From NCBI RefSeq assembly GCF_014269395.1, contig NZ_JACOGK010000026.1, positions 1 through 40,832 on the forward strand: a stretch of 40,832 nucleotides of DNA. The letters run 5' to 3'. Numbering within the stretch: the first letter of the stretch is position 1; every line of letters starts with the position of its first letter. Source of the DNA: Megasphaera hominis. Its GTDB lineage: Bacteria > Bacillota > Negativicutes > Veillonellales > Megasphaeraceae. A model generated the notes under the pieces. That model worked only from the letters and a program-made list of their open reading frames with translations, was not told the DNA's origin and searched no databases. A program made the position numbers and the translations under genes. Positions 11,630 to 36,006 of this stretch are shown here, piece by piece.

Positions 11630-11631
11630 GA

Positions 11632-11832: not shown

Positions 11833-11855
11833 GATAGATACCTCCCATACACTAC

Positions 11856-14911: not shown

Positions 14912-15188
14912 GTTCAGGTCTCCTTTTCGTCCCCCGTTCGCAATAAATATTGCCATGTACCCAGGCCCCTTTTTTGATGGGTTCCTTCGCGTTGCCAATG
15001 GGTACACCATATTTATAGACCGGTTCGTCCTTTGCAAAGTCTTTTAAGGCCACCTTGTGAGCAAATTCGATATCTTCTAAGAGCGTAACCTGCTCTCCTC
15101 TCTGCTCAATGTAGTCACCCTTGTGGGCGTCTTCCAGGACGACAGCCACGTTGTCTGCCGGATGAATGATCAAGCTTTTAATAAACAT
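14895..15188 (-). CDS. UxaA-family dehydratase, small SAF-domain subunit (SuyA-like)
   Basis: The 97-residue protein is a SAF domain as found at the N-terminus of altronate dehydratase UxaA and in SuyA: HPADNVAVVLEDAHKGD near the start, HKVALKDFAKDEPVYKYGVPIGNAKEPIKKGAWVHGNI in the second half. It should pair with the following gene's product to form the active dehydratase. The 17-base overlap with the large-subunit gene implies coupled translation. AGGAGG lies upstream of the ATG. Confidence 0.85.
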   Translation of the reverse strand: MFIKSLIIHPADNVAVVLEDAHKGDYIEQRGEQVTLLEDIEFAHKVALKDFAKDEPVYKYGVPIGNAKEPIKKGAWVHGNIYCERGTKRRPEHEHRD

Positions 15189-15200
15189 GAGTAAGCCTCC

Positions 15201-16526: not shown

Positions 16527-16608
16527 AAAGTTCACGTCCTCTCTTCTCTTTTATTTTTTTGTACTGCGCCTACTGCACCAAAAATACTAAGATGCAGCTC
16601 TTACCTAT

Positions 16609-18693: not shown

Positions 18694-18762
18694 ACAAGCT
18701 TTTGCAAAAGGCGTATGATAGTTTTAAAGATAAGCATACGTTTTTGGTTAGGAGGTTTTTAT

Positions 18763-19833
18763 ATGCATACGTACAACATCGCTGTCATCGCCGGCGACGG
18801 CATCGGCCCGGAAGTGCTGGCCGAAGGAGTCAAAGTATTGAAAGAGGTCGCCGCCTTGGACGGTACCTTCCAGTTTTCCTTTACGCACTTTCCCTGGAGC
18901 AGTGCCTATTATTTGAAAACAGGGAAAATGATGCCTGACGACGGTATCGATCAGCTCCGTCCCTTCGACGCCATCTTCCTCGGCGCCGTCGGCTCACCGG
19001 ACGTACCCAACAGCGTGACCTCGCGGGATCTGCTCATCCGCATCCGTCACGACTTTGACCAGTACATCAACCTGCGTCCCGTCAAATTGCTGAAGGGCGC
19101 ACCGTGCCCCTTGGCCGATGTAAAGCGCGAAGACATTGACATGACCTTCGTCCGCGAAAACAGTGAAGGCGAATACGCCGGCTCCGGTGCCTGGCTCTAC
19201 AAGGACCAGCCTAACGAAGTAGTCATCCAAAACGGCGTCTTCTCCCGCAAGGGCTGCGAACGGGTCATCCGCTATGCCTACGAACTGGCCCGCAAGGAAC
19301 ACAAGACACTGACCAACATCAGCAAGGGCAATGCCCTGAACTACTCCATGGTCTTCTGGGACCAGATTTTCGCCGAAGTGGGCAAGGAATACCCTGACGT
19401 CAAGACCTATTCCCTCCTCGTCGACGCTGCCAGCATGTTCATGGTCAAAAACCCGAAACGCTTCCAGATTATCGTCACGAGCAACCTCTTTGGCGACATC
19501 CTCACCGACCTGGGCGCCGCCATTGCCGGCGGCATGGGCCTCGCTGCCGGTGCCAACCTGAACCCGGAAAAGAAATTCCCGTCCATGTTTGAACCCATCC
19601 ACGGCTCGGCGCCGGACATTGCCGGCCAGGGCAAGGCCAACCCCTTGGCCACTGTCTGGTCTGCCAGCCAGATGCTCGACTTCCTGGGCTATCCCCAGTG
19701 GGGCAAAAAACTCATCGCCATCATCGAAGACCTGCTCGTAGAAAAGAAAGTCCTCACACCGGACCTGGGCGGCACAGCCACAACCAGCCAGGTCGGCGAC
19801 GAAGTCGTCCGGAAGCTGGAAGAAACAAAATAA
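18763..19833 (+). CDS. dmlA: D-malate/tartrate dehydrogenase (DmlA/TtuC-type, beta-decarboxylating)
   Basis: The 356-residue protein belongs to the isocitrate/isopropylmalate dehydrogenase family. It has GDGIGPE (11-17), substrate arginines at 95, 105 and 131, Tyr138 in RENSEGEYAG, Lys188, metal ligands Asp221, Asp245 and Asp249, and HGSAPDI (280-286) in the NAD site. Details match E. coli DmlA and TtuC rather than LeuB: FGAVG-type FLGAVGSPD, FDQYINLRPVKLL, CPLAD, NLNPEKKFPSMFEPIHGSAPDI, and a TPDLGGTATTSQV tail. Such enzymes oxidise D-malate to pyruvate and CO2 and also act on tartrates. The ATG at 18763 has AGGAGG upstream. It stands alone between two terminators, flanked by LysR genes. Confidence 0.82.
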   Translation: MHTYNIAVIAGDGIGPEVLAEGVKVLKEVAALDGTFQFSFTHFPWSSAYYLKTGKMMPDDGIDQLRPFDAIFLGAVGSPDVPNSVTSRDLLIRIRHDFDQYINLRPVKLLKGAPCPLADVKREDIDMTFVRENSEGEYAGSGAWLYKDQPNEVVIQNGVFSRKGCERVIRYAYELARKEHKTLTNISKGNALNYSMVFWDQIFAEVGKEYPDVKTYSLLVDAASMFMVKNPKRFQIIVTSNLFGDILTDLGAAIAGGMGLAAGANLNPEKKFPSMFEPIHGSAPDIAGQGKANPLATVWSASQMLDFLGYPQWGKKLIAIIEDLLVEKKVLTPDLGGTATTSQVGDEVVRKLEETK

Positions 19834-19916: not shown

Positions 19917-20834
19917 TTATTTGTAAATGGTATTGGCGTTGATCTGATTTCTCGATCGGAGGAACTCGCTAAAATTCGATTTTTTCGCGTATTCATAAAA
20001 AAGATCGGAGATTTTGTTATCCAGCGTTTGTTTCTTAAACACGAGCCACGTATTCCGTGTAAACGGCGTCTTGTCCTTGTTGTACATTTTCTTCGTCACC
20101 AAGGGATAGGGACATTCGGGTACCAGAATATCCGGCAAAAAGCCATAGCCCAGGCCGCTAAATACCATTTCCTTGCACAAATCCAAGTTCGTTACACGGC
20201 TGCCGATTTGCGGCTGCTGCTCGAAATGATCGCGCCACCAGCGCTGCAGGGCTTCATAGTAATAGGTTTCATAGGGGTAAGAAACTAATTTCATATTCGG
20301 CAAATCCGCCAATTCAAAGGGTTCCTTATTGACGACTAATACAGGGTACGTGAGCAACAGGTGTTTTTCTTCTTCCACGTAATTGTCACAGTGCTTCGTA
20401 AAGCCAAAATCAATCAGCCCGGAATTGACTAATTTCAATATTTCCGTACTCGATTTGATGTAGATTTCAAACTTCACCTTCGGGTAATAGCTTTGAAATT
20501 TTTCCAAAAAGGCCGGCAAATAATAGCGGCCAATAATGCTTGGCGACGCGATTTTCAGCGTCCCTACGACGCCCTTGCCTACGTCGGCCAGGTTGTTTTT
20601 GAAATCATTGACTTCTGCCAATATTTTATTGGCAAACTGGGCTGCATACTCACCGTGCGCCGTAAAGGTAATGCCTTTATTCGAGCGGTGGATCAGTTTA
20701 TAGCCCAGATTTTCTTCTATATTTTTGATCCGCGTCGTAACGGCCGGCTGGGAAATATAAAAAATATCCGCTACTTTCGTGATATTTTTATATTTGTAGA
20801 GTGCACTGATAATTGACCAATCTCTTTCGTCCAT
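19917..20834 (-). CDS. LysR-family transcriptional regulator
   Basis: The 305-residue protein has an N-terminal helix-turn-helix (NITKVADIFYISQPAVTTRIKNIEENLG, about residues 16-43) and a LysR substrate-binding domain (GTLKIASPSIIGRYYLPAFLEKF onward). The ATG has AGGAGG. It is AT-richer and more Lys/Asn-rich than its neighbours. Upstream lies a 420-bp intergenic region with a terminator-like hairpin and a GC-rich structured island, so its transcript may have an unusual leader. The target is unknown; converging dmlA and divergent or downstream operons are candidates. Confidence 0.87.
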   Translation of the reverse strand: MDERDWSIISALYKYKNITKVADIFYISQPAVTTRIKNIEENLGYKLIHRSNKGITFTAHGEYAAQFANKILAEVNDFKNNLADVGKGVVGTLKIASPSIIGRYYLPAFLEKFQSYYPKVKFEIYIKSSTEILKLVNSGLIDFGFTKHCDNYVEEEKHLLLTYPVLVVNKEPFELADLPNMKLVSYPYETYYYEALQRWWRDHFEQQPQIGSRVTNLDLCKEMVFSGLGYGFLPDILVPECPYPLVTKKMYNKDKTPFTRNTWLVFKKQTLDNKISDLFYEYAKKSNFSEFLRSRNQINANTIYK

Positions 20835-21255: not shown

Positions 21256-22206
21256 TTATGCTAGTTTTTGTTTCTTTGCTTTTTCTTTTGTCAGGTCTTC
21301 ACAGCGGCCGGCTCTTAATACGGCGCTGTCTGTTTCATGACCGACCAGTCTCTGTGTCAGTCTGGCTGTATCCATGGCTTTCAACAGATCAATGCCTGTG
21401 TCAATGCCCATTTCGTGTAACATATGAATGACATCTTCCGTCGCTACGTTGCCGGAAGCCCCAGGAGCGAAGGGGCAGCCGCCGAGACCGGCGAAAGCGC
21501 CATCAAACACGGTAATGCCCGCCTGCATGGCTGCTACAATGTTGGCCAAGGCCATATCCCGCGTGTTATGGAAATGCATGACCCAACGCACTTGCGGATA
21601 CCGTTTTACCATATACGAACCCAATTCGTATACCTGACGGGGATTTGCCATACCCGTCGTATCGGATAAGGATAATTCTGTAATGCCCAGATTCAAGAAA
21701 CGGTCTACGACGCGTTCCACCTGTTCCACAGGCACTTTACCCTGGAAGGGGCAGCCGAAGGAAGTCGAAATAGCGCCGGAAACTTCCATACCGTTTTTAC
21801 GGACAAAGTCAACGCACTTAGTAAAGCCTTCCATCATTTCCAACGGTGTCTTGTTAAAGTTATTGATGCAATGGGCTTCGCTGGCAGATACTGTCAATTT
21901 TACCTTTTTGATGCCGCACTGGAAGGCTCTTTCTACACCTTTCAGGTTCGGAACCAAGGCGCGGTATTCTACGCCCGGTACCTTTTGCATGGCTGCTACT
22001 AATTTATCCGTTTCAGCCATAGCCGGTACAGCCTTAGGATGTACAAAGGAACCAATTTCAATAACCTTTACGCCCGATGCAACGACCGAGTTTAATAAGC
22101 GCAATTTGTCATCGACGCTAAGCAATGTCTTTTCATTCTGTAAACCATCACGTAAACCAACTTCACAAATCGTAACTTGCTTAGGCCACGTTACTGAATT
22201 TTCCAT
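21256..22206 (-). CDS. HMG-CoA lyase family enzyme (operon B)
   Basis: The 316-residue protein has the HMG-CoA lyase motifs EVGLRDGLQNE (15-25) with Arg19 and Asp20, SxSEAH (107-112), SFGCPFQG (149-156), the metal-binding HFHNTR with His211 and His213, and GGLGGCPFAPGASGN with the catalytic Cys244 and Asn253. All residues needed for retro-Claisen cleavage of a 3-hydroxyacyl-CoA are present. Human and bacterial relatives split HMG-CoA into acetyl-CoA and acetoacetate, but the family also covers other tertiary hydroxyacyl-CoAs. EVGLRDG replaces the usual EVGPRDG. It is the last gene of operon B, 26 bases after the CoA-transferase that probably makes its CoA-ester substrate. GAGGAG precedes the ATG. 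Confidence 0.85.
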   Translation of the reverse strand: MENSVTWPKQVTICEVGLRDGLQNEKTLLSVDDKLRLLNSVVASGVKVIEIGSFVHPKAVPAMAETDKLVAAMQKVPGVEYRALVPNLKGVERAFQCGIKKVKLTVSASEAHCINNFNKTPLEMMEGFTKCVDFVRKNGMEVSGAISTSFGCPFQGKVPVEQVERVVDRFLNLGITELSLSDTTGMANPRQVYELGSYMVKRYPQVRWVMHFHNTRDMALANIVAAMQAGITVFDGAFAGLGGCPFAPGASGNVATEDVIHMLHEMGIDTGIDLLKAMDTARLTQRLVGHETDSAVLRAGRCEDLTKEKAKKQKLA

Positions 22207-22232
22207 TTCTATCGACTCCTCGTGTAATGAAA

Positions 22233-23423
22233 TCAGATAATGCCCTTTTCTTTCAATGCTTCCAGGTCTTTATCGTTTAAGCCAACTAATTCTTCATATA
22301 CTTCTTTATTGTGCTGTCCTAATTTCGGGCCAGCCCATTTAATTTCACCGGGAGTAGCACTCAGTTTAGGTACAACGCCGGGCATTTTAATCTTGCCAAA
22401 TTCAGAGTAGGGAACTTCTACGATATCTTCCCGTGCTGCATAGTGGGGATCTTCAAAGATATCTTCCATGCTGTATACGAGGCTGACAGGAGCACCGGCT
22501 TCATCCAGCGTGGCCTTAATATCTTTATAATCGTGTTTACCCATCCAATCGATGACAATTTCTTCGACTAAGGAATTGTTCTTTACGCGGGCACCGTTTG
22601 TATTAAACCGGGCATCTGCCAGGAGGTCTTCCCGGCCAATGCCCTTGGCAAAATATTCAAAGGTCCTGTCGGTGCTGCAAACCAGAACGACCCATTTGCC
22701 ATCCCGTGTCTTGAAGGTACCGGACGGGCTGGCAGAACCGCTGATGCTCGGTCTGCGTTCCGTAATCTGGCCGGCAATATCATAATTGGCAACGGCCCCT
22801 TCAAGCATACGGAAGATGCCTTCATATAAGCTCAGGTCTACTTCCTGGCCTTCACCTGTCTGGTCGCGGTGGTGAATACAAACCATAGCTGCATAGGCTG
22901 TATATAACCCGGCCACGTAATCACACAGGGAAATAGGCGGATTGACCGGCGGCCGGTCCGGATAACCGGTCATATAGGTCAGGCCCGAGAAAGCCGTTGC
23001 CGGCGTACCGAAGCCGGCGAGCTTCTTGTTCGGACCGGTCTGGCCATAGCCCGTAATGCGGATGACGATAATCTTAGGGTTGGCTTTCTTTAACGTTCCA
23101 TACGTCAGGCCCCATTTATCGAACGTCCCCGTCCGGAAATTTTCAATGATAATATCACTCTGCGCTACAAGCTTGAGAAAAATATCCTTGCCTTCTTCTT
23201 TTCTCAGGTCCAGCGTAATGCTGCGCTTGTTTCTGGCGAAGGAAGCCCAACGCAAGGACTTCTTTTCGTACAAGGGGCCCATATTACGGCCGGAATCCCC
23301 TTTTCCCGGCATTTCGACTTTTAATACGTCGGCACCAAAATCACCTAATAAGGCGGCGCCAAAGGGGCCTGCAATAACCGTCGACGTATCAAGTACGCGA
23401 ATACCTTCTAATGCTGCTGCCAT
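22233..23423 (-). CDS. CaiB/BaiF family III CoA-transferase (subgroup 2, operon B)
   Basis: The 396-residue protein has the family N-terminus LEGIRVLDTSTVIAGPF and the catalytic Asp168 in PPISLCDYVAGL. It closely resembles the 32321-33514 enzyme (TVIAxP, LRW/IRW near residue 58, SxTLD, KWG, TGYGQTGP, GYPDRPPVxPP) and differs from the 7823 and 36007 pair. It should activate a carboxylic acid by CoA exchange, and the neighbouring lyase suggests a 3-hydroxy di- or tricarboxylic acid. The ATG at 23423 is chosen because GGAGAG lies eight bases upstream; the in-frame GTG at 23432 overlaps that site. Confidence 0.9.
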   Translation of the reverse strand: MAAALEGIRVLDTSTVIAGPFGAALLGDFGADVLKVEMPGKGDSGRNMGPLYEKKSLRWASFARNKRSITLDLRKEEGKDIFLKLVAQSDIIIENFRTGTFDKWGLTYGTLKKANPKIIVIRITGYGQTGPNKKLAGFGTPATAFSGLTYMTGYPDRPPVNPPISLCDYVAGLYTAYAAMVCIHHRDQTGEGQEVDLSLYEGIFRMLEGAVANYDIAGQITERRPSISGSASPSGTFKTRDGKWVVLVCSTDRTFEYFAKGIGREDLLADARFNTNGARVKNNSLVEEIVIDWMGKHDYKDIKATLDEAGAPVSLVYSMEDIFEDPHYAAREDIVEVPYSEFGKIKMPGVVPKLSATPGEIKWAGPKLGQHNKEVYEELVGLNDKDLEALKEKGII

Positions 23424-23469
23424 GCCACTCACTCTCCATTATCCGATATAGAACTTCTCTTCCTCTAGC

Positions 23470-24051
23470 TTATGCAGACTTGGATTCCTGCTGATCCAGC
23501 TGTTCCATTTCTTCCCGTGCTGCCCGTACGCCGGCATCAAAGGCCTTGTCGTTGGCTTTTCTCAGTGCCGGTTTGAAGTGTTCCTGAACGGCTTTGCGTA
23601 CGAGTTCTACATCGACGAAGCCGGACAAGGCGGCAATAGCACCGATAGCAACAACGTTAGCGGCTACTTTTTTACCTGTTTCGTCGATTGCCAGCTGCGT
23701 CATCGGAATAGAGTATACGTTTTTAATATGAGCCGGTACGCGGTGTACGAATTTCGGTTCGATCAAGAGGATGCCGTTAGGATCCATGTCCTTGCAATAT
23801 TTGTCGCAGGCCAGCTGGGACATAGCGAGGACGAAATTCGGTTTACGTACAGACGGATAATTGATCGGTTCTGTATCAGAGATCAATTCGGAACGGCAGG
23901 CACCGCCGCGGGCTTCCGGACCATACGAGCGGGTCAAAACGACTTCACGTTCAGCCAATTCACCGGCTGCTTTAGCGAAAATATCGCCCAATAACATCAT
24001 GCCCTGACCACCGGAACCACCGAATCTGATTTCATAATGATTGTTTTTCAT
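23470..24051 (-). CDS. 2-oxoacid:ferredoxin oxidoreductase, gamma subunit (KorC-like), operon B
   Basis: A 193-residue gamma subunit: IRFGGSGGQGMMLLGDIFAKA near the N-terminus, TRSYGPEARGGACRSELISD in the middle, and a C-terminal helix rich in Lys and Glu. The family role is the gamma domain of the ferredoxin oxidoreductase. It begins two bases after the beta stop, with AAGGTGG inside the end of the beta gene. Confidence 0.9.
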   Translation of the reverse strand: MKNNHYEIRFGGSGGQGMMLLGDIFAKAAGELAEREVVLTRSYGPEARGGACRSELISDTEPINYPSVRKPNFVLAMSQLACDKYCKDMDPNGILLIEPKFVHRVPAHIKNVYSIPMTQLAIDETGKKVAANVVAIGAIAALSGFVDVELVRKAVQEHFKPALRKANDKAFDAGVRAAREEMEQLDQQESKSA

Positions 24052-24053
24052 AA

Positions 24054-24884
24054 TTAATGACCACCTTTCGCGCTTTCAATAATAGAATCGTACTGTGCTG
24101 TATATTCTTTCCGGTCAACCCGTTTTGCGAAGTTACCGATAACAATCTTGCCTTTCAATTCTTCTTCTGTCATCGTGTCAGCCTTGGCTTTCATGACAGC
24201 GTTTTCTTTGAAGCCCAGCAGCATATCCGGTGCTGCGCCTTTTTTGTTGAGACGGCCATACAAGGTCGGGCAATCACAAACAGCTTCGACAACGGAGAAA
24301 CCTTGGTGATTAATGCCTTCAGCGATCTGATTGATCAGCATATTTACGTGATATACGGTCGAACGGGCTACATAGGTCGCACCGGCAGCAGCCGCGAGGG
24401 AGCAAATATCGAAAGGCGTATCAATGCTGCCATAGACGCTGGTCTTGGTCTTGCTGCCCAGCGGCGTCGTCGGCGAGAACTGGCCGCCGGTCATGCCGTA
24501 GTTATTGTTGTTGAAGACAACCGTCGTAATATCGATGTTTCTGCGGCACGCGTGAATGAAGTGATTGCCGCCGATGGATGTGCAGTCGCCATCACCGGTT
24601 ACGACGATGACTTTCAGCTTCGGATTGAACATCTTGACGCCCGTTGCATACGGTAAGGCACGGCCGTGATTCGTATGCAGTGCGCAGAAGTTCATGTAGC
24701 CGTTGGCACGGCTGGAACAGCCGATACCGGATACGATAACGACGTTATCCGGATCAATTTCCGTCTTTTCAATAGCCCGGATCAACGCGTTGATGACGAT
24801 CCCGTTGCCACAGCCGGGGCACCAGATATGAGGCAGTTTATCTTGCCGTAAAAATGTATCGAACACATGCTGCTTTTCAGACAT
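24054..24884 (-). CDS. 2-oxoacid:ferredoxin oxidoreductase, beta (TPP-binding) subunit (KorB-like), operon B
   Basis: The 276-residue protein has CPGCGNG (22-28), GIGCSSR (53-59), HTNHGRALPYATG (70-82) and the TPP motif TGDGDCTSIGGNH (96-108) to NNNNYGMTGGQ. These are the canonical residues of KorB-type enzymes, closer to characterised 2-oxoglutarate/2-oxoacid enzymes than the operon A copy. AGGAGG overlaps the end of the alpha gene and drives a closely coupled start. Confidence 0.9.
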   Translation of the reverse strand: MSEKQHVFDTFLRQDKLPHIWCPGCGNGIVINALIRAIEKTEIDPDNVVIVSGIGCSSRANGYMNFCALHTNHGRALPYATGVKMFNPKLKVIVVTGDGDCTSIGGNHFIHACRRNIDITTVVFNNNNYGMTGGQFSPTTPLGSKTKTSVYGSIDTPFDICSLAAAAGATYVARSTVYHVNMLINQIAEGINHQGFSVVEAVCDCPTLYGRLNKKGAAPDMLLGFKENAVMKAKADTMTEEELKGKIVIGNFAKRVDRKEYTAQYDSIIESAKGGH

Positions 24885-26018
24885 TTAGATTTCCTCCTTA
24901 AGAGCTTTCAGAATCGTTTCTGCTGCAATCATTTTGCCGTTATTCTGTGTGATCTGGACAACCGGCGTTACCCCTGCCGATTCGCGTACTACGTGATACA
25001 GCTGGCCTTCGTTCATTTCACATACAAACAGCTTACGTTTATTCTGGCTCAGTTCGGCCAAGCGCTGTTCCGGGAAAGGCCAAACCGTAATGGGGCGGAA
25101 CACGCCAACCTTGATGCCTTCCTGACGGGCCTGATCGACAGCATCTTTTACCGATCTGGATAAAAGTCCGATAGATACGATGAGATATTCTGCATCTTCC
25201 GTCTTGTATTCTTCATACGATTCAATATCTTTGAGATTGTTTTCTACTTTGCCAACCAGGCGTTTGATCGAATCCGATGTCAGCTGGGGATTGTCCGATA
25301 CAGGGAAGCCTGTTTCATCATGAATGAGGCCGCTGCAGTACCAGCGATAGCCATCGCCGAAGGAAGCCATGGGAGGAATGCCCGTTCCGTCATCGGCAAA
25401 GGGTTTGAATTCTTCCGGCGGGCACGTCGGCCGTTTCCGGTCTACGCATTCATATTCCGAGCTGTCGGGAATGCGGATACGTTCACTCATGTGAGCCAGC
25501 ATGGCGTCGGTCATGATAACAACGGGCACGCGGTAGGTTTCGGCCAGGTTGAAGGCCCGGATGGTTTCCGTATACACTTCGCCAACCGAAGCCGGTGCGA
25601 CGGCGATGATCGGATGATCACCGTGAACACCCCAGCGTACCTGCATGATATCGCCCTGTGCCGGCAGTGTAGCGACGCCCTGGCAGGGACCCTGGCGCAT
25701 AGCGTAGGCAACGACGATAGGTACTTCAGCCATGGCTGCGTAGCCTAAATTTTCCTGCATCAGGGAGTACCCCGGGCCGCTCGTAGCCGTCATGGCTTTG
25801 GCGCCGGCGCTGGAAGCACCGATGATAGCGGCCATGGAAGCCAGTTCGTCTTCCATCTGCATGTATTTGCCGCCCACTTTCGGCAGCCATTCCGAAGATA
25901 ATTCTGCAATTTCCGTTGCCGGTGTGATGGGATACCCTGCAAAGAATCTCATTCCTGCTGCAATGGCAGCATGTGTACAGGCTTCATTCCCTGTCATGAT
26001 TTCATACGTGTTTTCCAT
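24885..26018 (-). CDS. 2-oxoacid:ferredoxin oxidoreductase, alpha subunit (KorA/VorB-like), operon B
   Basis: The 377-residue subunit starts with TGNEACTHAAIAAGMRFFAGYPITPATEI and continues QMEDELASMAAIIGASSAGAKAMTATSGPGYSL. It carries VFRPITVWPFPEQRL and a transketolase-C-like end. It shares gene order and most motifs with the operon A alpha subunit but is clearly diverged, so the two complexes probably act on different 2-oxo acids. The ATG overlaps the ferredoxin stop by one base (TAATG). Confidence 0.9.
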   Translation of the reverse strand: MENTYEIMTGNEACTHAAIAAGMRFFAGYPITPATEIAELSSEWLPKVGGKYMQMEDELASMAAIIGASSAGAKAMTATSGPGYSLMQENLGYAAMAEVPIVVAYAMRQGPCQGVATLPAQGDIMQVRWGVHGDHPIIAVAPASVGEVYTETIRAFNLAETYRVPVVIMTDAMLAHMSERIRIPDSSEYECVDRKRPTCPPEEFKPFADDGTGIPPMASFGDGYRWYCSGLIHDETGFPVSDNPQLTSDSIKRLVGKVENNLKDIESYEEYKTEDAEYLIVSIGLLSRSVKDAVDQARQEGIKVGVFRPITVWPFPEQRLAELSQNKRKLFVCEMNEGQLYHVVRESAGVTPVVQITQNNGKMIAAETILKALKEEI

Positions 26019-26209
26019 TATTCATTCTCCCCCATCCGAATAGCGAAGTCCGGGCATCGTAATTCACAAAGCTTACAGTCGATGCAATCCTCCGGTCTTG
26101 CAAATATTGGTTTGCCTTCTTCATCTCTGTCGTACACTTGCTTGGGACACAAGACGGCACAGATGCCACAGGCCTTACATAATTTTTCATTGAATTCAAA
26201 TTTGCCCAT
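26018..26209 (-). CDS. 2-oxoacid:ferredoxin oxidoreductase, delta (2x[4Fe-4S] ferredoxin) subunit, operon B
   Basis: A 63-residue ferredoxin with Cys11, 14, 17, 21 and Cys42, 45, 48, 52. I start it at ATG 26209; a TTG four codons further upstream lies directly against the GAGAGG ribosome site. It is separated from the upstream antiporter gene by about 230 bases containing a small leader ORF. Confidence 0.87.
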   Translation of the reverse strand: MGKFEFNEKLCKACGICAVLCPKQVYDRDEEGKPIFARPEDCIDCKLCELRCPDFAIRMGENE

Positions 26210-26265
26210 CTTTTCTTTCAACCTCTCTTTTCAGCTCAATGCACTCCGATTTCTCTCATTCCTTA

Positions 26266-26334
26266 TCAGGAAGCCTGCCTGACTCTTACTTCGGTAGTGA
26301 ACCGAAAGTCATAAGCAGGTTTCCTTCCTTTCAT
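26266..26334 (-). CDS. Possible 22-residue leader peptide overlapping a stem-loop
   Basis: An ATG at 26334 preceded by GAGGAG (10-base spacing) opens 22 codons ending at TGA 26266-26268. The peptide starts MKGRKPAYDF and is Arg-rich, with AGG or AGA codons at three of four Arg positions. The same DNA folds into a hairpin: outer GGAA and CCTGC arms (26316-26324 and 26269-26279, with a bulge) and an inner ACTTTCGGT/ACCGAAGT stem. It lies in the leader of the ferredoxin-oxidoreductase genes of operon B, so it could be a translated regulatory leader or simply a hairpin by chance in frame. No relative is known to me. Confidence 0.35.
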   Translation of the reverse strand: MKGRKPAYDFRFTTEVRVRQAS

Positions 26335-26441
26335 AACCAATGTACTCCTCGGATAAGGTGTTGTAAAATACTTTACTTTTATGCGGAATATTAAGAAATT
26401 TTATGATGTCTCATTCTAAATAACGTTATATTTGCTTGAAA

Positions 26442-27839
26442 TCACCATAAACCGATGATTTTCCAGAAGCCCATGCCCACCGTCATATAGACGACTACGT
26501 TGAAGGCAGCGATGATGGCACCAATGGTCCACCAGTCCTTTTGTGCTACGTAACCGGTACCAAACATGACCGGGCCGACGGCACCGCCGTAATGGGTCGT
26601 CAGGCAGCCATAGGCACTCGAAGCGGCCAAGAGGAGGAACAACGGTACAGGCGGCACCTGTGCCAGCATGCCTACCGTAAAGAGGACCGGCATGAAAGCG
26701 GCTACATATGCGCCCATCGAGGCAAATAAATAGCGGACCAGGACGGAAATGACCAGCAAGGCAAACAGGATGATAACCGGATTGATCCCGTCAAAGCTGA
26801 CCGTATTGCCAAAGACACCGGCCAACCAATCAAAGAACTTCGCTTTAGCCAAAACACCGCTGAAGCCCATGATGGCACCATACCACATGAAGGTATTCCA
26901 GGCGCCCTTATTGGCCAATACATGCTGCCAATCCAGGAGCTTCAGGATAGACGCGCCGGCAAAAAACAGTAAGGCTACGTGCGTGGCTGCAAGCTTGGTG
27001 TACGAGCCTGTAGACCAACCGATAATGGCCAGGAGGAAGAGCACGAGCAGCGCTTTTTCTTTGCCCGTCATGGGGCCCAGTTCAGCCAGACCCTGCTGTG
27101 CCAATTCCTTGTAATTGGGGATGGATTTGATTTCCGGCGGATAGAGCTTGTACACAATGAACGGAACGGCTACGCAAACCAGCAGGGCCGGTACGGACAT
27201 ATAGACAAACCACTGCATCCAGCCGACGTTAATCTTCAAAATATCCGCAGCAATACCGGCAGTCAGGATATTCGGCGCGCAGGCAGTCAGGAAGACAGCC
27301 GACGTAGACATACTGATGGCATACCCGGCCAGCGTAATGTACGAGCCGATCTTCCGGCCTGTCGGGCCGGCATCCGAACCGAGGGCCATAGCAACGTTTT
27401 TAAAGATAGGGTAAATGATGCCGCCGGAACGGGCCGTATTAGACGGCGTTGCCGGGCTGAGCAATAAGTCCGTAATCATCTGGCCGTATACAAGGCCCAA
27501 GGAAGATTTGCCAAAGAGCTTGATCATCCAGTAAGCGACGCGCTTGCCAAGGCCCGTATCGATAAAGGCCTGGGTAATCAGGAAGGCAGAAAATACAAGC
27601 CATACCGTCGAGTTCCCATAGCCGCTCAAAAGGCTGGACATAGGGACGACGAAGGAACCAAAGGCAATGACGACCAGCATGACGACCGATACGCCGGCAG
27701 GCTGTAAAATCAAGCCTAAGATAGCCGCACTATACACGGCAAACATGCGCCACGCTTCGGGAGAAAGGCCCGCCGGAACGGGTGACAGGATGATTCCCAA
27801 GGGAACCAGAAAAAGGACGATCCATTTTAACCATCGCAT
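26442..27839 (-). CDS. DASS/SLC13-family carrier, CitT-type di-/tricarboxylate antiporter
   Basis: The 465-residue membrane protein has about 12 helices and the family signature SPATPSNTARSGGIIYPIF, the substrate- and cation-binding SNT hairpin as found in E. coli CitT and TtdT and in plant 2-oxoglutarate/malate translocators. A second re-entrant segment near CLTTHYGGAVGPVMFG matches the C-terminal half. CitT and TtdT exchange citrate or tartrate for succinate. In operon B this would fit import of a hydroxy acid and export of the acid released by the CoA-transferase. The ATG at 27839 has GAGGTG six bases upstream; the in-frame ATG at 27854 is part of that site's leader. Confidence 0.87.
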   Translation of the reverse strand: MRWLKWIVLFLVPLGIILSPVPAGLSPEAWRMFAVYSAAILGLILQPAGVSVVMLVVIAFGSFVVPMSSLLSGYGNSTVWLVFSAFLITQAFIDTGLGKRVAYWMIKLFGKSSLGLVYGQMITDLLLSPATPSNTARSGGIIYPIFKNVAMALGSDAGPTGRKIGSYITLAGYAISMSTSAVFLTACAPNILTAGIAADILKINVGWMQWFVYMSVPALLVCVAVPFIVYKLYPPEIKSIPNYKELAQQGLAELGPMTGKEKALLVLFLLAIIGWSTGSYTKLAATHVALLFFAGASILKLLDWQHVLANKGAWNTFMWYGAIMGFSGVLAKAKFFDWLAGVFGNTVSFDGINPVIILFALLVISVLVRYLFASMGAYVAAFMPVLFTVGMLAQVPPVPLFLLLAASSAYGCLTTHYGGAVGPVMFGTGYVAQKDWWTIGAIIAAFNVVVYMTVGMGFWKIIGLW

Positions 27840-27878
27840 GATTCGACACCTCATTTATGTAGTAAGTAGTAAGTTCAA

Positions 27879-29012
27879 TTAAAAGGTAATGTTCCGATAC
27901 ACAGCTTCACCCTTGCAAATCGTCATGAGCGGTTCCAGTACCTGCTGGCCCGTCCGTTTTTCCTTCAGCGTATCGCTGAACACGATCTGCGCCGGAACCA
28001 AATCGAAAACGGCTACGTCGGCCTGGGCACCAATGCTCAGCGTCCCTAACCGTTCTTTGCCGTGCATGAGCTTAGCCGGCGTTGCCGTGCAGGCTGCAAT
28101 GACATCGTAGAGGGAAAGGCCCAGGAGCAGATATTTGGACATGATATAAGGCAGGCTGAAAACAGGATCCTTAAAGAGTGTCTTGCCCGTAATATCCGTC
28201 GAAATGATATCCGGCTTAAAGCCATCGGCCAGGGCTTGTCCGGCTACGGCAAAGGACCAATGGTTGCCGCCGTTAGCCGCATCCATGACAACGCCCCGGG
28301 CCTTTGCGTCCTGTACCCCTGGCAGAACCTTGCCGTCTTCACCGATGATCGTGTTCCCTGTACCGTGGAAGCAATGGGCCAGCACGTCACCGACATCCAG
28401 GACTGAGGCCACTTGTCCCATATCTACCGGCGGTTTGGTCACATGGACACACAGGCGCGTTCCCAGCTGCCGGGCTGTGGCAGCGGCCTGTTTAAAGATT
28501 TCGAAACCGTTTTCCTTAATGATCGGCTTGCTGATCCGGATTTTTAAGCCCTGAATGATATCAGGATATGTTGCCAGGTATTCCGCCATTCTGTCCAAAT
28601 CCCAATAGGCCGGGTCATAGCTTTCATGGTATTTCATCGTTGCCAGGCCGGCCGGACAGAGGTTGAGGTAGCACTGTACGTTCATAAAAGAACGTTCTAC
28701 GACATCAGAAATGAAAGTCTTCATCGTACTCACGCCGGCACTCCCGGCATCTACGACAGCCGTCACACCCTGAGGGAAATAGTTTCGATCCGTATCAATG
28801 CCAATATCCGTACTATCTTTAAACACGTGTGCATGGTAATCAATCAGGCCCGGAAATACATATTTGCCAGTAGCATCGATGACGATTTCCGGGTTAGGGC
28901 AATCCTGCGGAGCTACGATGCGTCCGTTGTGAATATAGAGATCACACAATGCGTCGCGCCCGTTTGCCGGGTCGATAATATGCCCGTTTTTGATAAGCAT
29001 GTCCTTTTTCAT
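27879..29012 (-). CDS. Amidohydrolase/deacetylase family metallohydrolase (COG3964 type)
   Basis: The protein has about 377 residues and a complete binuclear metal site: His60 and His62 in DYHAHVF, Lys157 (probably carbamylated) in GLKIRISK, His190, His213 in AHCFHGTG, and Asp273 in STDITG. This layout and the GLIDYHAHVF and GKTLFKDPVFSLP stretches match the COG3964 deacetylase group, whose studied members cleave acetyl groups from D-hydroxy or D-amino acids such as O-acetyl-(R)-mandelate. It may release a hydroxy or amino acid for operon B, of which it is the first gene. The start at ATG 29012 is less certain than others because the GAGGAG is 14 bases upstream; an ATG four codons later is an alternative. 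Confidence 0.82.
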   Translation of the reverse strand: MKKDMLIKNGHIIDPANGRDALCDLYIHNGRIVAPQDCPNPEIVIDATGKYVFPGLIDYHAHVFKDSTDIGIDTDRNYFPQGVTAVVDAGSAGVSTMKTFISDVVERSFMNVQCYLNLCPAGLATMKYHESYDPAYWDLDRMAEYLATYPDIIQGLKIRISKPIIKENGFEIFKQAAATARQLGTRLCVHVTKPPVDMGQVASVLDVGDVLAHCFHGTGNTIIGEDGKVLPGVQDAKARGVVMDAANGGNHWSFAVAGQALADGFKPDIISTDITGKTLFKDPVFSLPYIMSKYLLLGLSLYDVIAACTATPAKLMHGKERLGTLSIGAQADVAVFDLVPAQIVFSDTLKEKRTGQQVLEPLMTICKGEAVYRNITF

Positions 29013-30890: not shown

Positions 30891-32297
30891 TTATTCATAA
30901 CCGACGACAACGGCGAGCATCATGAACAGGCTGGCAAAGACGAACCAAAGGCCAAACAGTTTGCCCATGAACTTCATCCACGTACCGTAGCCGACGCCAC
31001 AAGCCGTCAAAAAGGCCATGAGAGACGACGAATGAGGATAAATATAGTTACTCAGGCCATCGCCATAATTCAGTGCCAAAATAGCCGTTTCCGGCGTCAT
31101 GCCAATCAATTGGGCTACCGGCAGGAATACAGGCATCGTTACATTGGCCTGGCCGCTGCCACTGGTCACGAAGAAATTGATAATCGTATGGGCCCAAAAC
31201 ATCATAGGTGCCTGAATGAGAGGATGGAAGGAATCCAGCCCCTGGGCAATATAATAAACGACCGTATCGAGAATATGGCCATCCGTCATGGCAATCGCCA
31301 CCGAGCGGGCAATGCCGATCATAATACAGGCGCCCATGATCGTCTTGCAGCCGGCAACAAAGCTATTGCACATTTGGTTTGCGTTCATTTTCCCGGCTAT
31401 GGCTGCCAAAATCCCTGTGAACAGGAAGCATACGCCCGTTTCTTCGTAGCTCCACTTGTAGTACGAACAGCCAATGATGAGTGCTACGACACCGCCGACT
31501 AAGACCAGCAACGCCAGGACATGACGCCGTTCCATGACGGTCAGCGATTCGGGGTCGCCAGGCTGTACCAAATTGGGAATCCCATAGGCCACACTTTGTT
31601 CCGGGTGGAGCCGGACCCGTTCGGCATAGCGGCAAATAAACCACGTCGTCAGCAGCCACAAGCCGGCAAAGCCGACCCAGCGAAAGCCCATGCCATGGTA
31701 CAAAGGCAGGCCGGCCATTTCATTGGCAATCGCCGTCGTGCTGATATTCAGCATGCCGCACGTAGAGCCAAAGGAAGACGCCGTAATAATGACTGCCGCT
31801 GCCGTAACGGCATCATAGCCCATCATCAGGCAAAGCATCAATACGACCGTGCTGAAAGGAATAAAATAGTTCATCTGAATGGGCACGCTCATAGCCCCAA
31901 AGGCCAGCATCATGACGATAATCGTCATACGCGGCGTCTTGCTGTACTTGGTTGCCAAAATACGCATTAAGGCGTGAATAGACTGGGTATCAATAATCAT
32001 CTGCACGCCGCCGGCAATAAAGAACATCGTAAAAATCAGTTTTGCCTGTTTGACAAAGCCCTCATAAATCATATTTAGCATATAGAGCGGACTGACCGGC
32101 GTATTGGCAATAAAGTGAAAACCGTTGGGATCTACTACTTGTTTACCTACTTCGTTCGTCATTTTGGAATATTCGCCGGACGGAATGACATACGTAAAAA
32201 CACAGGCGAGCAACAACATAGCAATGACGACAAGATATTCGTGAATATGAGGAAAAGACCTTTTCTTCTTTTCCAATGTAGGTGTTTCTTGAGCCAT
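30891..32297 (-). CDS. YfcC-family (C4-dicarboxylate/basic amino acid type) anaerobic carrier
   Basis: The 468-residue membrane protein has 12 or more predicted helices. It starts with a cytosolic basic stretch (KKKRSFPHIHEYLVV) and carries YfcC/DcuC-superfamily motifs: VFTYVIPSGEY, FFIAGGVQMIIDTQSI, ITASSFGSTCGMLNISTTAIANEMAG and FFVTSGSGQANVTMPVFLPVAQLIGM (a conserved substrate segment). The superfamily exchanges or takes up dicarboxylates and some amino acids under anaerobic conditions. It is the second gene of a two-gene operon with a CoA-transferase, which suggests that it imports that enzyme's acid substrate. GGGAGG precedes the ATG. Confidence 0.85.
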   Translation of the reverse strand: MAQETPTLEKKKRSFPHIHEYLVVIAMLLLACVFTYVIPSGEYSKMTNEVGKQVVDPNGFHFIANTPVSPLYMLNMIYEGFVKQAKLIFTMFFIAGGVQMIIDTQSIHALMRILATKYSKTPRMTIIVMMLAFGAMSVPIQMNYFIPFSTVVLMLCLMMGYDAVTAAAVIITASSFGSTCGMLNISTTAIANEMAGLPLYHGMGFRWVGFAGLWLLTTWFICRYAERVRLHPEQSVAYGIPNLVQPGDPESLTVMERRHVLALLVLVGGVVALIIGCSYYKWSYEETGVCFLFTGILAAIAGKMNANQMCNSFVAGCKTIMGACIMIGIARSVAIAMTDGHILDTVVYYIAQGLDSFHPLIQAPMMFWAHTIINFFVTSGSGQANVTMPVFLPVAQLIGMTPETAILALNYGDGLSNYIYPHSSSLMAFLTACGVGYGTWMKFMGKLFGLWFVFASLFMMLAVVVGYE

Positions 32298-32320
32298 TTT
32301 TTCAACCTCCCTGCCGCCTG

Positions 32321-33514
32321 TTAAATAATCTTCTGCTGCTTCAGATCGGCCAGTTCCGCATCAGAAAGGCCCAGCAGGTCACCGTATACCTCTTCATTCG
32401 CAGCGCCCAGCTTCTGTCCGGCCCATTTGATTTCCCCGGGCGTTTCCGAAAAGACAGGCACGATGCCCGGCATTTTGACAGAGCCGAATTCCTCGCAGGG
32501 CACATCGACAATGTCATGACGCGCCTGGTATTGAGGATCTTCAAAACAGTCCTTGATATTGTAAATCGTAGAAATGGGCACACCGGCAGCATCGCATTTT
32601 TCCTTCAATTCCGCAAAGGTATGCTGTTTTACCCATTCGCTGACAGCCGTCATGATGGGCTTGGGATCCTTGAGCCGGTCGCCGGCTACTGCGTATTTGG
32701 GCAGCCATTCGTCCCGTTTCCCCATGGCATCACACAAGTGCTCAAAGACCGGATTGGTACTGCACACGATGATGACATACTTGTCGTCAGCCGTTTCAAA
32801 GGTACCGATAGGGCACGAAGCGCCACTAGGCATGGGGCTTCTTTCCCTGATCGTCCCCATCAAATCATACTGGGCGATCATGGCCTCTTCCATGCGGAAA
32901 ATGCCTTCATACAAGCTGACATCGATTTCCTGAGCCTTCCCCTTCAAGGCATCCCGGTGATAGAGAGCAACCATAGTGCCCATGGCCGCATACAGGCCGG
33001 CTACATAATCGGCTAAGGCAAAAGGCGGGCTCACAGGCGGCCGGTCAGGATAGCCCTGCATATACGTCATACCGGAAAACGCCTGCAAAGGCGTACCCAA
33101 TCCGGCCAGCTTGCGATACGGCCCGGTCTGGCCATAGCCCGTGACATGGGTCACGATAATATCCGGATTGACCTGGCGCATGACATCGATGCCAATCCCC
33201 CATTTGTCCAGCGTATCGGTCTTAAAATTCTCAATAACGACATCGCTCTTTTCCACCAGCTTGAGGAACAGCTTCTTTCCCTCTTCATAATGAAAATCTA
33301 AGGTAACACTCTTTTTGTTGCGCCCCATAGAAGGCCAGCGAATACTCTTGCCATCCTTCAACGGCCCCATAGCCCGGAAGGCATCACCCCGTCCGGTCAT
33401 TTCCACCTTAATCACTTCAGCACCCAAATCTGCCAGCAGCCCAGCTGCCCACGGTGCGGCAATAACCGTCGCGATGTCCAAAATCCGGACACCCTCTAAT
33501 GCTTGCTTTCCCAT
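32321..33514 (-). CDS. CaiB/BaiF family III CoA-transferase (subgroup 2)
   Basis: The 397-residue protein has LEGVRILDIATVIAAPW at the N-terminus and the catalytic Asp169 in PPFALADYVAGL. It is the closest relative in this window of the operon B CoA-transferase (22233-23423) and may share its acyl donor. Here it is partnered only by a YfcC-family carrier, with no lyase or oxidoreductase next to it, so the CoA ester it makes must be used by enzymes encoded elsewhere, perhaps those of operon B or the 33.7-37.2 kb operon. GAGAGGTG precedes the ATG. Confidence 0.9.
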   Translation of the reverse strand: MGKQALEGVRILDIATVIAAPWAAGLLADLGAEVIKVEMTGRGDAFRAMGPLKDGKSIRWPSMGRNKKSVTLDFHYEEGKKLFLKLVEKSDVVIENFKTDTLDKWGIGIDVMRQVNPDIIVTHVTGYGQTGPYRKLAGLGTPLQAFSGMTYMQGYPDRPPVSPPFALADYVAGLYAAMGTMVALYHRDALKGKAQEIDVSLYEGIFRMEEAMIAQYDLMGTIRERSPMPSGASCPIGTFETADDKYVIIVCSTNPVFEHLCDAMGKRDEWLPKYAVAGDRLKDPKPIMTAVSEWVKQHTFAELKEKCDAAGVPISTIYNIKDCFEDPQYQARHDIVDVPCEEFGSVKMPGIVPVFSETPGEIKWAGQKLGAANEEVYGDLLGLSDAELADLKQQKII

Positions 33515-33585
33515 TTCATTACACCTCTCTCATTCTTTCGAAGTCCCTGTAAGATTACGAACAGTAAACTCTTTTATCTAAATTA

Positions 33586-33591
33586 ATTATA
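33586..33591 (-). promoter_or_regulatory. Candidate -10 box of the CoA-transferase/YfcC operon
   Basis: A consensus TATAAT reads on the minus strand about 72 bases before the CoA-transferase start. The sequence 17 bp upstream (TTTTTA) is a poor -35, so an activator may be needed. Confidence 0.4.
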
Positions 33592-33660
33592 ATGATAGGT
33601 GAGCAAAATAAAAAGCAAGCATTTTTTAAGCGTTGTAAATTAAATTTGCAGAAAAAAGCA

Positions 33661-33704
33661 ACAAAAAAGAAGCCGGTCGCACTAGGCAATCAGCTTCTTT
33701 TTTG
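33661..33704 (-). terminator. Terminator of the CoA-transferase/HMGL/MatC operon
   Basis: ACAAAAAAGAAGC (33661-33673) pairs with GCTTCTTTTTTGT (33692-33704), 22 bases after the MatC-type stop codon. A/T tracts lie on both sides, so it may work in both directions. Confidence 0.8.
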
Positions 33705-33725
33705 TTGTTATATTGAGCTTTCATC

Positions 33726-34997
33726 TTACGGGTGGAAGGTAAGATCTGTAATGGCATCGAAGGTTAAGCCGGAAACAACGGCGATTACAAATAATGCACC
33801 TGCAGCCAAGATCAACAATTGAACAAATACTTTTGTCTGTTTTGTAGAGTTGAAGTTTTCAATATTGGTACCCATAGCTGCCAGGATTAAAGCGCCGCCT
33901 GTGGACATTGGCGAAAGGCCAGCCATAGAGCCACCGGAACCAACAGCTGCCATCAGGGCAACCGGGCTGACACCGCCAACCTGGTTTGCAATATCGGCAC
34001 ACATTGGCATCATCGTCGGATAAACAACGCCAAGAGCCGAGCTTACCAGGCTGAGGAGGCCTGCAGAAATGCCCATCAGCGGTGTTGCCGTCGAGCTGGT
34101 CATTATGGAGGAAATGGCAGAACTCATGAGCTTAATGCCACCAACTTTATCGACAACACCGAGCAAGGCACCAACACCTAAAACCATGAGGATTGTGCCC
34201 CAAGGCAGATGTTTCAAGCATTCACCATCTTTGGCTACGCCACAGAGAACCAGAATAGCTGCAGAAGCAAAAGCAGCCAGACCGATATTGATCTTTAATG
34301 CGATCATGAATACCAGCATCATGATAATACCGCTCAAGGAAAACAGCTGATTCTTTGTAAAAGCCGGCAAATCCGCTTCCCGTTCATGTAACGGGGCCTT
34401 CAATTTATAGCCTTTATAGGCTACAAAGACGATGACACCGTACACGAGCGTAATAAGTGTTTGGCAAATCAAGACAGTCATCATGACGCCGCTAAAGCCT
34501 GCTTTAGAAGCTGCGTCCGTAATAATGGCTGCTTCAGGCGTGAGAATTGTCATACGGCCAGCCATCAGGCCTAATTCACCGATGATGGCCAACATTAACG
34601 GATTATAGCCTACCTGAATAGCTGTCGTTACAGCCAGGGCCGGGATAATAGCCAGGGCCGGAATAGCGCCAGGGCCAACGCCGGCTACAACAAAGCCGGC
34701 AATATACATAGCAATTGGCAGTAACCATACACGGTTACCTGTAGCAGCGACGATTTTTTTCGCTAACAGGTCTAGTGCACCTGTATCCTTAATAACAGCA
34801 AACAGTAAGGTAATACCAACTAGGGTACAAAACATAGAACTACTAATGCCACCAATAAGAGTCTTATCGGTCATACCAAAAAGACGAACGCAGATAACAC
34901 CTACAGCCAATGCGACGATACCAACATTTACATGCCGTACAAAGGCTATGATGATGGCTGCGATAAAGAGCAGAAGAGCCAACACATCCATTCCCAT
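33726..34997 (-). CDS. MatC-like dicarboxylate carrier (malonate/C4-dicarboxylate type)
   Basis: The 423-residue membrane protein has about 11-12 helices. The N-terminal half (FVRHVNVGIVALAVGV, GISSSMFCTLVGITLLFAVIKDTGALDLLAKKI) matches the MatC N-terminal domain of malonate and dicarboxylate carriers, and GVGPGAIPALAIIPALA and SGGSMAGLSPMSTGGALILA resemble the paired re-entrant loops of the ion transporter superfamily. It is the last gene of the 37.2-33.7 kb operon, after a CoA-transferase and a lyase whose substrate it presumably imports. AAAGGAGG precedes the ATG. Confidence 0.8.
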   Translation of the reverse strand: MGMDVLALLLFIAAIIIAFVRHVNVGIVALAVGVICVRLFGMTDKTLIGGISSSMFCTLVGITLLFAVIKDTGALDLLAKKIVAATGNRVWLLPIAMYIAGFVVAGVGPGAIPALAIIPALAVTTAIQVGYNPLMLAIIGELGLMAGRMTILTPEAAIITDAASKAGFSGVMMTVLICQTLITLVYGVIVFVAYKGYKLKAPLHEREADLPAFTKNQLFSLSGIIMMLVFMIALKINIGLAAFASAAILVLCGVAKDGECLKHLPWGTILMVLGVGALLGVVDKVGGIKLMSSAISSIMTSSTATPLMGISAGLLSLVSSALGVVYPTMMPMCADIANQVGGVSPVALMAAVGSGGSMAGLSPMSTGGALILAAMGTNIENFNSTKQTKVFVQLLILAAGALFVIAVVSGLTFDAITDLTFHP

Positions 34998-35070
34998 AAT
35001 ACGTTCCTCCTTTAATGATTTTTCGTTAGATCAGCGGGGGAGACAAGCAAGCTTGCATTCACACATTGGC

Positions 35071-35973: not shown

Positions 35974-36006
35974 AACAACGGCCTCCTTATCGCAAGTATC
36001 ACGTAA

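Follow-up and report, generated by a model that had tools for sequence, protein, structure and literature searches.

The 40,832-nucleotide stretch of Megasphaera hominis DNA considered here (contig NZ_JACOGK010000026.1, hereafter the window) carries on its minus strand a run of genes, operon B, which probably serves the uptake and ATP-free breakdown of a citrate-like acid, most likely homocitrate. According to open reading frames and profile matches, the order from position 29012 down to 21256 is a metallo-amidohydrolase of the cog3964/PRK12394 type (AMH, 27879-29012, with the longest open reading frame starting from 29045), a DASS-family di/tricarboxylate transporter (26442-27854), the ferredoxin oxidoreductase subunits KorD (26018-26209), KorA (24885-26018), KorB (24054-24884) and KorC (23470-24051), a family III CoA-transferase (CaiB, 22233-23432) and an enzyme of the hydroxymethylglutaryl-CoA (HMG-CoA) lyase family (HMGL, 21256-22206). 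Inside the blocks AMH-DASS and KorD-to-HMGL the genes are spaced by 0-37 bp or overlap, and between DASS and KorD lies a gap of 232 bp. This gap contains a strong hairpin on the minus strand (approximately 26265-26330) without a U-tract, possibly a processing or attenuation element; the folding energy of the segment 26215-26445 is -53.1 kcal/mol (z = -2.11). The gap also includes one weak match to a promoter, the whole region having 8 such matches against a mean of 11.1 in shuffled sequences. One or two transcripts are therefore both possible, so that the genes and families listed in the preliminary description of this DNA are present as stated, while its single transcription unit is unproven. 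The same junction is just 22 bp long in a related locus (L109), which favours a functional linkage. An Rfam scan (E ≤ 0.5) returned one match, below the gathering score and on the opposite strand inside korB, which was taken as chance.

The oxidoreductase has all the subunits of a four-subunit 2-oxoacid:ferredoxin oxidoreductase, including the ferredoxin subunit KorD, a 63-residue protein with two Cys-rich motifs (2x[4Fe-4S]; Fer4, 3.7e-10) which is under the size limit of the open reading frame list and was read directly from the sequence. The alpha subunit KorA (POR_N, 2.6e-66) carries the YPITP motif at residue 29 and scores 523.6 bits against the general 2-oxoacid model NF006412 (cut-off 411); its nearest solved structure is 1yd7_A, followed by the alpha subunit of a 2-oxoglutarate synthase (8ys5_A). 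KorB, the thiamine pyrophosphate (TPP) subunit, matches the 2-oxoglutarate ferredoxin oxidoreductase beta model NF007207 and is nearest to 8ys5_C (2.8e-77), and the gamma subunit KorC matches PF01558 (2.9e-33) and NF006323 (151 bits, cut-off 235). The complex is thus like the KorDABC/OorDABC enzymes in its four subunits and in that the 2-oxoglutarate enzyme 8ys5 ranks first among the solved matches of KorB and second among those of KorA, and unlike them in falling under the 2-oxoglutarate-specific equivalog cut-offs (OorA, 398 vs 579 bits; beta, NF007207, 302 vs 364; OGOR_delta, 49 vs 125). By sequence, KorA is closer to the 2-oxoglutarate than to the pyruvate types.

The transferase matches PF02515 over its full length (residues 8-375; 398 bits, 4.3e-119) and has the Asp171 of this family. 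Its best NCBIfam model, that of succinate-glutarate CoA-transferase (NF052585), reaches 257 bits, far under the cut-off (750). Among its solved relatives, the first to bear a functional name ranks third and is a succinate-hydroxymethylglutarate CoA-transferase (9br6_A, 1.2e-60). To judge by their names, the enzymes of both matches use succinyl-CoA, with glutarate or hydroxymethylglutarate as the partner. The lyase (PF00682, 2.6e-55) scores 348.4 bits against the HMG-CoA lyase subfamily model NF004283, over the cut-off of 246, and residues R19, D20, H211, H213, C244 and N253 are present. The Arg/Asp pair, HxH motif, Cys loop and Asn of HMGL, D171 of CaiB and the YPITP motif of KorA are what we take to be catalytic elements. 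A role of HMGL as a homocitrate, citramalate or isopropylmalate synthase was considered and rejected (nifV_homocitr, 96 vs 463; LEU1_arch, 86 vs 485).

AMH scores 429.8 bits against NF009060 (PRK12394 metallo-dependent hydrolase), marginally under the equivalog cut-off of 442, and also matches Amidohydro_3 (5.5e-17). It aligns with the solved structures 8je0_A (4.3e-81) and 2ogj_A (7.5e-48) at the HxH, K, H, H and D positions, presumably the metal ligands. The transporter passes the cut-off of TIGR00785 (390 bits vs 198.6) and matches PF00939 (6.7e-137); its solved relatives at E ≤ 1e-5 are the plant dicarboxylate transporters 1 and 2.1 and two bacterial DASS sequences. The preliminary description had named these two proteins a deacetylase and an antiporter, which are names of families rather than of activities. 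Enzymes of the cog3964 group hydrolyse esters of alpha-hydroxy acids, which offers a lead, and as homocitrate gamma-lactone is such an ester, AMH may be a lactonase. We propose that, ahead of CoA activation, AMH either opens an alpha-carboxy-gamma-lactone (e.g. homocitrate lactone) or takes off an acyl group; its possible action as a lactonase on homocitrate gamma-lactone, reached by analogy, is the weakest link of the proposal set out below. Nothing useful on the cog3964 hydrolase was found in the Creative Commons-licensed PubMed Central (PMC) literature.

For the transferase, 380 genomes from the same class as Sporomusa acidovorans were searched, counting matches at E ≤ 1e-130 as close relatives. 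Such relatives (50-84% identity) are present in 21 genomes, and in all 21 a member of the lyase clade adjoins them or lies a few genes off; 7 of the 21 are nearer to a second transferase of the window (32321-33514) than to that of operon B. In a separate check of six genomes, three had a close CaiB relative (62-83%), all remaining matches being at or below 39%. By these comparisons, the transferase and the lyase form a conserved pair. The transferase-linked loci number 25, of which 24 are distinct (L113 = L028 and L127 = L023 by position), and since 18 of the 25 were found with the transferase as query, their transferase linkage is by construction; L126, which has no lyase of the operon B clade, was left out. 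AMH occurs in 9 of these loci, a close DASS relative in 5, and a YfcC-type transporter, a CitMHS-like symporter and CitF in 4 each. The whole set of the window recurs in L109, in the order DASS, CaiB, HMGL, AMH, DASS, KorD, KorA, KorB, KorC, and HMGL lies together with KorDABC, with 0-2 genes between them, in L001, L002, L037/L133, L108 and L109.

The gene order of Sporomusa acidovorans (L001) is CaiB-HMGL-ScpC-KorDABC, where ScpC is a succinyl-CoA:acetate CoA-transferase (747 bits, cut-off 500). Its position between the lyase and KorDABC leads us to expect succinyl-CoA as the product of Kor and 2-oxoglutarate as its substrate, which lends support to the acyl-CoA that the preliminary description had proposed as the oxidoreductase product. 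In the genomes of L001, L002 and L109, the best match to the TPP enzyme that accompanies other lyases of the clade (see below) has about 35% identity, and no match to the aldehyde dehydrogenase was found at E ≤ 1e-100. The module therefore appears to be standalone in these genomes, needing the free acid.

The lyase itself was followed with an alignment-based scan of a species-genome collection, which gave 437 relatives; the best 80 were kept and correspond to 79 loci, and all counts out of 79 describe these best 80 of 437. Five marker genes of an apparent quinate/shikimate (hydroaromatic) module were considered (an acylating aldehyde dehydrogenase, a TPP enzyme, an AP_endonuc_2 barrel, AroD and AroE), assigned by best BLAST match (E ≤ 1e-10, over a range of about 10.5 kb), their names being taken from profile scans of a small set of representatives and the AroE assignments being partly weak (26-29% identity in Pseudomonadota loci). 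At least one marker was found in 59 of the 79 loci and at least three in 36, while CaiB was found in 7, none of which had any of the five markers. Clustering and profiles identified the neighbours as a SauS-like acylating aldehyde dehydrogenase, an acetolactate-synthase-like TPP enzyme and the AP_endonuc_2 barrel, together with type I 3-dehydroquinate dehydratase, shikimate dehydrogenase, MocA or zinc dehydrogenases and tripartite transporters. The window itself gave no tblastn match for any of the five markers.

The clade comprises 98 rows, with quinate-linked and transferase-linked lyases intermingled; its members are 49-82% identical to the window lyase and recur in Bacillota, Synergistota and Rhodocyclaceae, with Sporomusa and other Sporomusaceae among the named nearest relatives. 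The window lyase is like the HMG-CoA lyase family (NF004283/PRK05692; DRE-TIM) in its catalytic residues and its score over the cut-off, and unlike it in belonging to this separate clade, which in most of the loci seen is accompanied by Kor, by CaiB or by genes of hydroaromatic type. Several residues (window numbering) are conserved in the clade and not found in the four other HMGL sequences compared. These are R82 and W208 in all 98 rows, T66 in 97, A64, K103, S181 and L297 in 96, E80 and P121 in 94, and C14 in 92. They are possible specificity determinants. In the lyase phylogeny, a quick tree with long outgroup branches and 32 of its 97 inner branches open, the contexts change label 9 times, at least 7 of the changes being forced by starred branches, which is fewer than in shuffles (mean 23, transferase label).

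One marker-bearing locus is that of Lucifera butyrica (L133, the same as L037; 992-12842), where HMGL-KorD-KorA-KorB-KorC-MFS-AroD-Zn-ADH-TPP enzyme-barrel-aldehyde dehydrogenase lie on one strand. The presence of the acylating aldehyde dehydrogenase in the same run as HMGL-KorDABC implies that Kor is not needed there to make the substrate of the lyase. Runs in L011, L014, L034, L040 and L131 likewise combine several of AroD/AroE, a Zn- or MocA-type dehydrogenase, an IolI-like barrel, the TPP enzyme, the aldehyde dehydrogenase and the lyase. From their gene content, these six runs (with L133) probably encode an anaerobic quinate/shikimate route via homocitryl-CoA. In chemistry of the inositol type, IolE performs a dehydration, and the ring is opened by IolD or by cyclohexane-1,2-dione hydrolase. 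The quinate-linked operons are like the inositol set IolG/IolE/IolD/IolA in having a dehydrogenase, a sugar-isomerase-like barrel, a TPP enzyme and an acylating aldehyde dehydrogenase, and unlike it in that their TPP enzyme is nearer to the acetolactate synthase type and their last step would be an HMGL lyase. Starting from 3-dehydroquinate, with its C3 ketone, C4/C5 hydroxyls and tertiary hydroxy acid at C1, an IolE-like dehydration would give 1-hydroxy-3,4-dioxocyclohexane-1-carboxylate, and hydrolytic C3-C4 cleavage by the TPP enzyme would give OHC-CH2-C(OH)(COOH)-CH2-CH2-COOH, i.e. homocitrate semialdehyde. The acylating dehydrogenase would then form homocitryl-CoA, for cleavage by the HMGL-type enzyme to acetyl-CoA and 2-oxoglutarate. 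Inositol-type chemistry applied to the quinate-linked genes in this way predicts homocitryl-CoA as the substrate of the lyase.

The CoA-generating partner of the lyase is swapped among these relatives. A Sporomusaceae metagenome bin has two lyases that are 97.8% identical over 317 residues, one following the aldehyde dehydrogenase (L022) and the other following CaiB and preceding DASS and AMH (L023), the TPP enzyme being present elsewhere in the same bin as well. A Propionivibrio metagenome bin has two that are 99% identical over 304 residues (L012 and L013), both starting at a contig end, with one copy beside AMH and the other near the aldehyde dehydrogenase. The simplest reading of near-identical lyases in both contexts is that a single acyl-CoA substrate is formed either from the aldehyde or from the free acid.

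Applied to operon B, this suggests the following cycle, in which we infer every substrate and direction. DASS would import homocitrate, plausibly in exchange for succinate, and AMH would open the lactone or strip an acyl group. CaiB, proposed from its sequence relatives to be a succinyl-CoA:homocitrate CoA-transferase, would transfer CoA from succinyl-CoA to give homocitryl-CoA, which HMGL, the proposed homocitryl-CoA lyase, would cleave to acetyl-CoA and 2-oxoglutarate. KorDABC would convert the latter to succinyl-CoA, CO2 and reduced ferredoxin, and succinyl-CoA would prime the next turn. The net reaction would be homocitrate + CoA + oxidised ferredoxin to acetyl-CoA + succinate + CO2 + reduced ferredoxin, i.e. 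7 carbons in and 2+4+1 out. The preliminary description had offered homocitrate as one example, and with succinyl-CoA as the donor the example is coherent and its carbon balances; a 2-oxo acid as the product of the lyase, on which that description hinged, is most likely correct by comparison (KorDABC and the linkage to hydroaromatic genes) rather than by assay. We regard the homocitrate cycle as the best supported reading, with citramalate as its main rival, at a confidence that is roughly balanced. For operon B to be a homocitrate fermentation module, possibly supplied with the gamma-lactone, we would put the chance a shade short of even. A wider proposal, that the clade is a homocitryl-CoA lyase hub which ends the anaerobic quinate/shikimate route and which, in the window and in related loci, receives its substrate through CaiB, AMH and DASS in an ATP-free, self-priming fermentation of free homocitrate or its lactone via succinyl-CoA, is put forward tentatively, as being distinctly possible.

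A number of observations pull the other way. No niche for free homocitrate is established. As regards the hydroaromatic route, acetolactate synthases, BbmA and glyoxylate carboligase (261-284 bits) are closer kin of the TPP enzyme in the relatives than cyclohexane-1,2-dione hydrolase is (172 bits), and the best solved match of the barrel is the isomerase IolI, at a weak 2.2e-10, so that the barrel could be an isomerase; this leaves the ring-opening chemistry as a proposal. Neither context was seen in 13 of the 79 lyase loci (15 by the tree labels, before L052 and L079 were found to carry one marker), and although 9 of the 13 have less than 6 kb on one side, L007, L015, L019 and L053 have at least 6 kb on both. 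L007, with none of the five markers nearby, is from Propionivibrio limicola, which we take to be a hydroaromatic specialist, and has the TPP enzyme and the aldehyde dehydrogenase side by side elsewhere in its genome. The L022/L023 pair comes from a metagenome bin and could thus represent two strains. As regards the module itself, KorA is found in only 4 of the 25 transferase-linked loci (all with KorB, KorC and KorD), with KorD at a contig end in 2 more, which makes Kor optional, and the genome of L108 holds the TPP enzyme and the aldehyde dehydrogenase elsewhere. An old-yellow-enzyme-type FMN/FAD oxidoreductase between the lyase and KorD in L002 (10968-12998) is unexplained. The pocket residues of KorDABC are ambiguous, with Arg at the position of StOFOR1 Lys49 and Met at that of Leu123. 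The K49R mutant of StOFOR1 favoured pyruvate, according to the published study (PMC5020499), and the Helicobacter-type 2-oxoglutarate enzyme 8ys5 likewise has Arg at the Lys49 position. Finally, citrate-lyase-like genes are found in L111, L114, L121 and L125, and CitMHS-like symporters in four loci, two of them merely 31-33% similar, so that citrate or citramalate fits these loci too; CitF was seen as well in 4 of the 79 scan loci, none of which has CaiB.

The main rival is a citramalate module, in which the transferase would make citramalyl-CoA, the lyase would cleave it to acetyl-CoA and pyruvate, Kor would turn pyruvate into acetyl-CoA, and acetyl-CoA (or succinyl-CoA) would prime the next turn. 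Such a cycle is likewise carbon-balanced and self-priming, it is consistent with the citrate-lyase-like genes and CitMHS-like symporters of some related loci, and a Chloroflexus (R)-citramalyl-CoA lyase and citramalate transferase-lyase pairs are known, albeit not seen here. However, Kor is closer to the 2-oxoglutarate enzymes, hosts of this kind usually own a separate pyruvate enzyme, and in L001 ScpC stands between the lyase and Kor. Citramalyl-CoA would not easily arise from the enzymes that flank the quinate-linked sister lyases, and citramalate offers no gamma-lactone for AMH. We consider it rather unlikely, with perhaps one chance in five or slightly better. The Chloroflexus system is like operon B in pairing a family III transferase with an HMGL-family lyase that releases acetyl-CoA and a 2-oxo acid, and unlike it in the Kor, DASS and cog3964 hydrolase of operon B, none of which is known there, and in its C5 substrate, that of operon B being probably C7; the two are set apart by their described features.

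A less probable case is another tertiary hydroxy acid (citrate, hydroxycitrate, 2-isopropylmalate or 4-carboxy-4-hydroxy-2-oxoadipate) or a promiscuous module. A CitMHS symporter over the cut-off lies beside the module in L127 (= L023), L111 and L117, CitF is present in 4 of the 25 loci, L121 has a lactonase-like protein, and the CaiB paralogues and second lyase of the window (35071-35973, 39% identical) point to a host that deals with more than one acid of this kind. Citrate, however, would give oxaloacetate and need no ferredoxin oxidoreductase, and the 97.8% identical lyases in one bin speak for a single substrate class. Operon B is like the citrate lyase/CitT fermentation in its tertiary hydroxy acid, its DASS transporter, the release of an acetyl unit and a 2-oxo acid, and the self-priming acyl transfer, and unlike it in using a CoA thioester with a separate transferase and lyase, not an acyl carrier protein complex; neither CitE nor CitF gave a tblastn match in the window at E ≤ 1e-5. 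Among the CaiB+HMGL loci, L121 (4425-10684), L114 and L125 have AMH, DASS and citrate-lyase-like genes, CitE being under the curated cut-off (356 vs 443) and CitF over it (616 vs 501) in L121, with both assigned by BLAST alone in L114 and L125. L121 also encodes a sulfomuconolactone-hydrolase-like (lactonase-like) protein.

That HMGL is a true HMG-CoA lyase, forming acetoacetate after a succinyl-CoA:HMG CoA-transferase with Kor unrelated, is very unlikely. It would agree with the subfamily cut-off (348 vs 246) and with the solved succinate-HMG CoA-transferase among the nearest solved relatives of CaiB, yet acetoacetate is no known Kor substrate, and HMGL and KorDABC cluster in the five loci named above; hydroaromatic-type genes are found in most of the clade loci seen, and the clade has its own invariant residues, such as R82 and W208. 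An oxidoreductase acting upstream of the lyase, making its acyl-CoA from a 2-oxo acid (e.g. citryl-CoA from 4-carboxy-4-hydroxy-2-oxoadipate) with the transferase just recycling CoA, is chemically sound and would account for the sulfomuconolactonase-like protein and CitDEF near AMH/DASS in L121, but it was rejected as the least probable of these readings, Kor being superfluous for the acyl-CoA step in the gene run of Lucifera and ScpC in L001 indicating succinyl-CoA.

Returning to the homocitrate cycle, the preliminary description knew of no described pathway with exactly this set, which can hold for the substrate and the gene set; the principle does not share this novelty, since re-use of the product CoA for fresh substrate by a CoA-transferase is well known (oxalate, carnitine, glutaconate) and common in fermenters. 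Homocitrate is a biosynthetic intermediate of lysine, coenzyme B and the nitrogenase cofactor, and searches of the CC-licensed PMC literature found no description of homocitryl-CoA or of homocitrate degradation or catabolism, which is weak evidence of absence; in titles and abstract openings of the same literature, no description of hydroaromatic or quinate breakdown via such a pathway was found, and the citramalyl-CoA-lyase papers there are mainly concerned with itaconate, mesaconate and the 3-hydroxypropionate cycle. As far as the literature covered shows, what appears new is the substrate and the presence of KorDABC, AMH and DASS beside the pair, but chiefly that the lyase is shared with a module of hydroaromatic type. 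By what route fermenters manage to open quinate and shikimate while avoiding aromatic intermediates is reportedly an old question of Brune and Schink, and the gene clusters turn this opening into named steps that can be assayed singly. A homocitryl-CoA hub would also give a reason for the same lyase recurring in Bacillota, Synergistota and Rhodocyclaceae, and would mean that the annotation "hydroxymethylglutaryl-CoA lyase" is wrong for a wide clade.

After operon B and on the same (minus) strand lies a LysR regulator (19917-20834; LysR_substrate, 2.7e-27). Its relatives (47-54% identity) are found in five other CaiB+HMGL loci (L114, L115, L116, L121 and L125), and it may therefore control operon B. 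Between LysR genes, on the plus strand, is a gene of the tartrate/isopropylmalate dehydrogenase family (18715-19833; TIGR02089, 476.9 vs a cut-off of 470.4). The region 7823-16535 forms another organic-acid module, with a further CoA-transferase and a second KorABC (9101-11629) whose KorA and KorB are 47-49% and whose KorC is 34% identical to those of operon B; an IlvD/Edd-type dehydratase, a UxaA/altronate-type dehydratase and a gluconate-type permease were named there by eye. A third module (30891-37236) contains a YfcC-type and a second transporter (by eye), a CoA-transferase, an HMGL-family lyase and another CoA-transferase. The transferase at 32321-33514 is 55% identical to the CaiB of operon B, and three genomes from the class to which Sporomusa acidovorans belongs have copies with 87-89% identity to it, which, together with the Sporomusaceae among the nearest relatives of the operon B lyase, fits a host in the Negativicutes. 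The lyase at 35071-35973 is over the HMG-CoA lyase cut-off. The first transferase of this module also occurs in L118, L119, L120 and L122, together with AMH, YfcC and the lyase clade of operon B. Adjacent open reading frames at 37678-39600 and 39765-40673 resemble sigma-54-type activators (by eye); the second (302 residues, GTG start) resembles the C-terminal part of the first, and by sequence the pair is a tandem duplicate, possibly a partial one.

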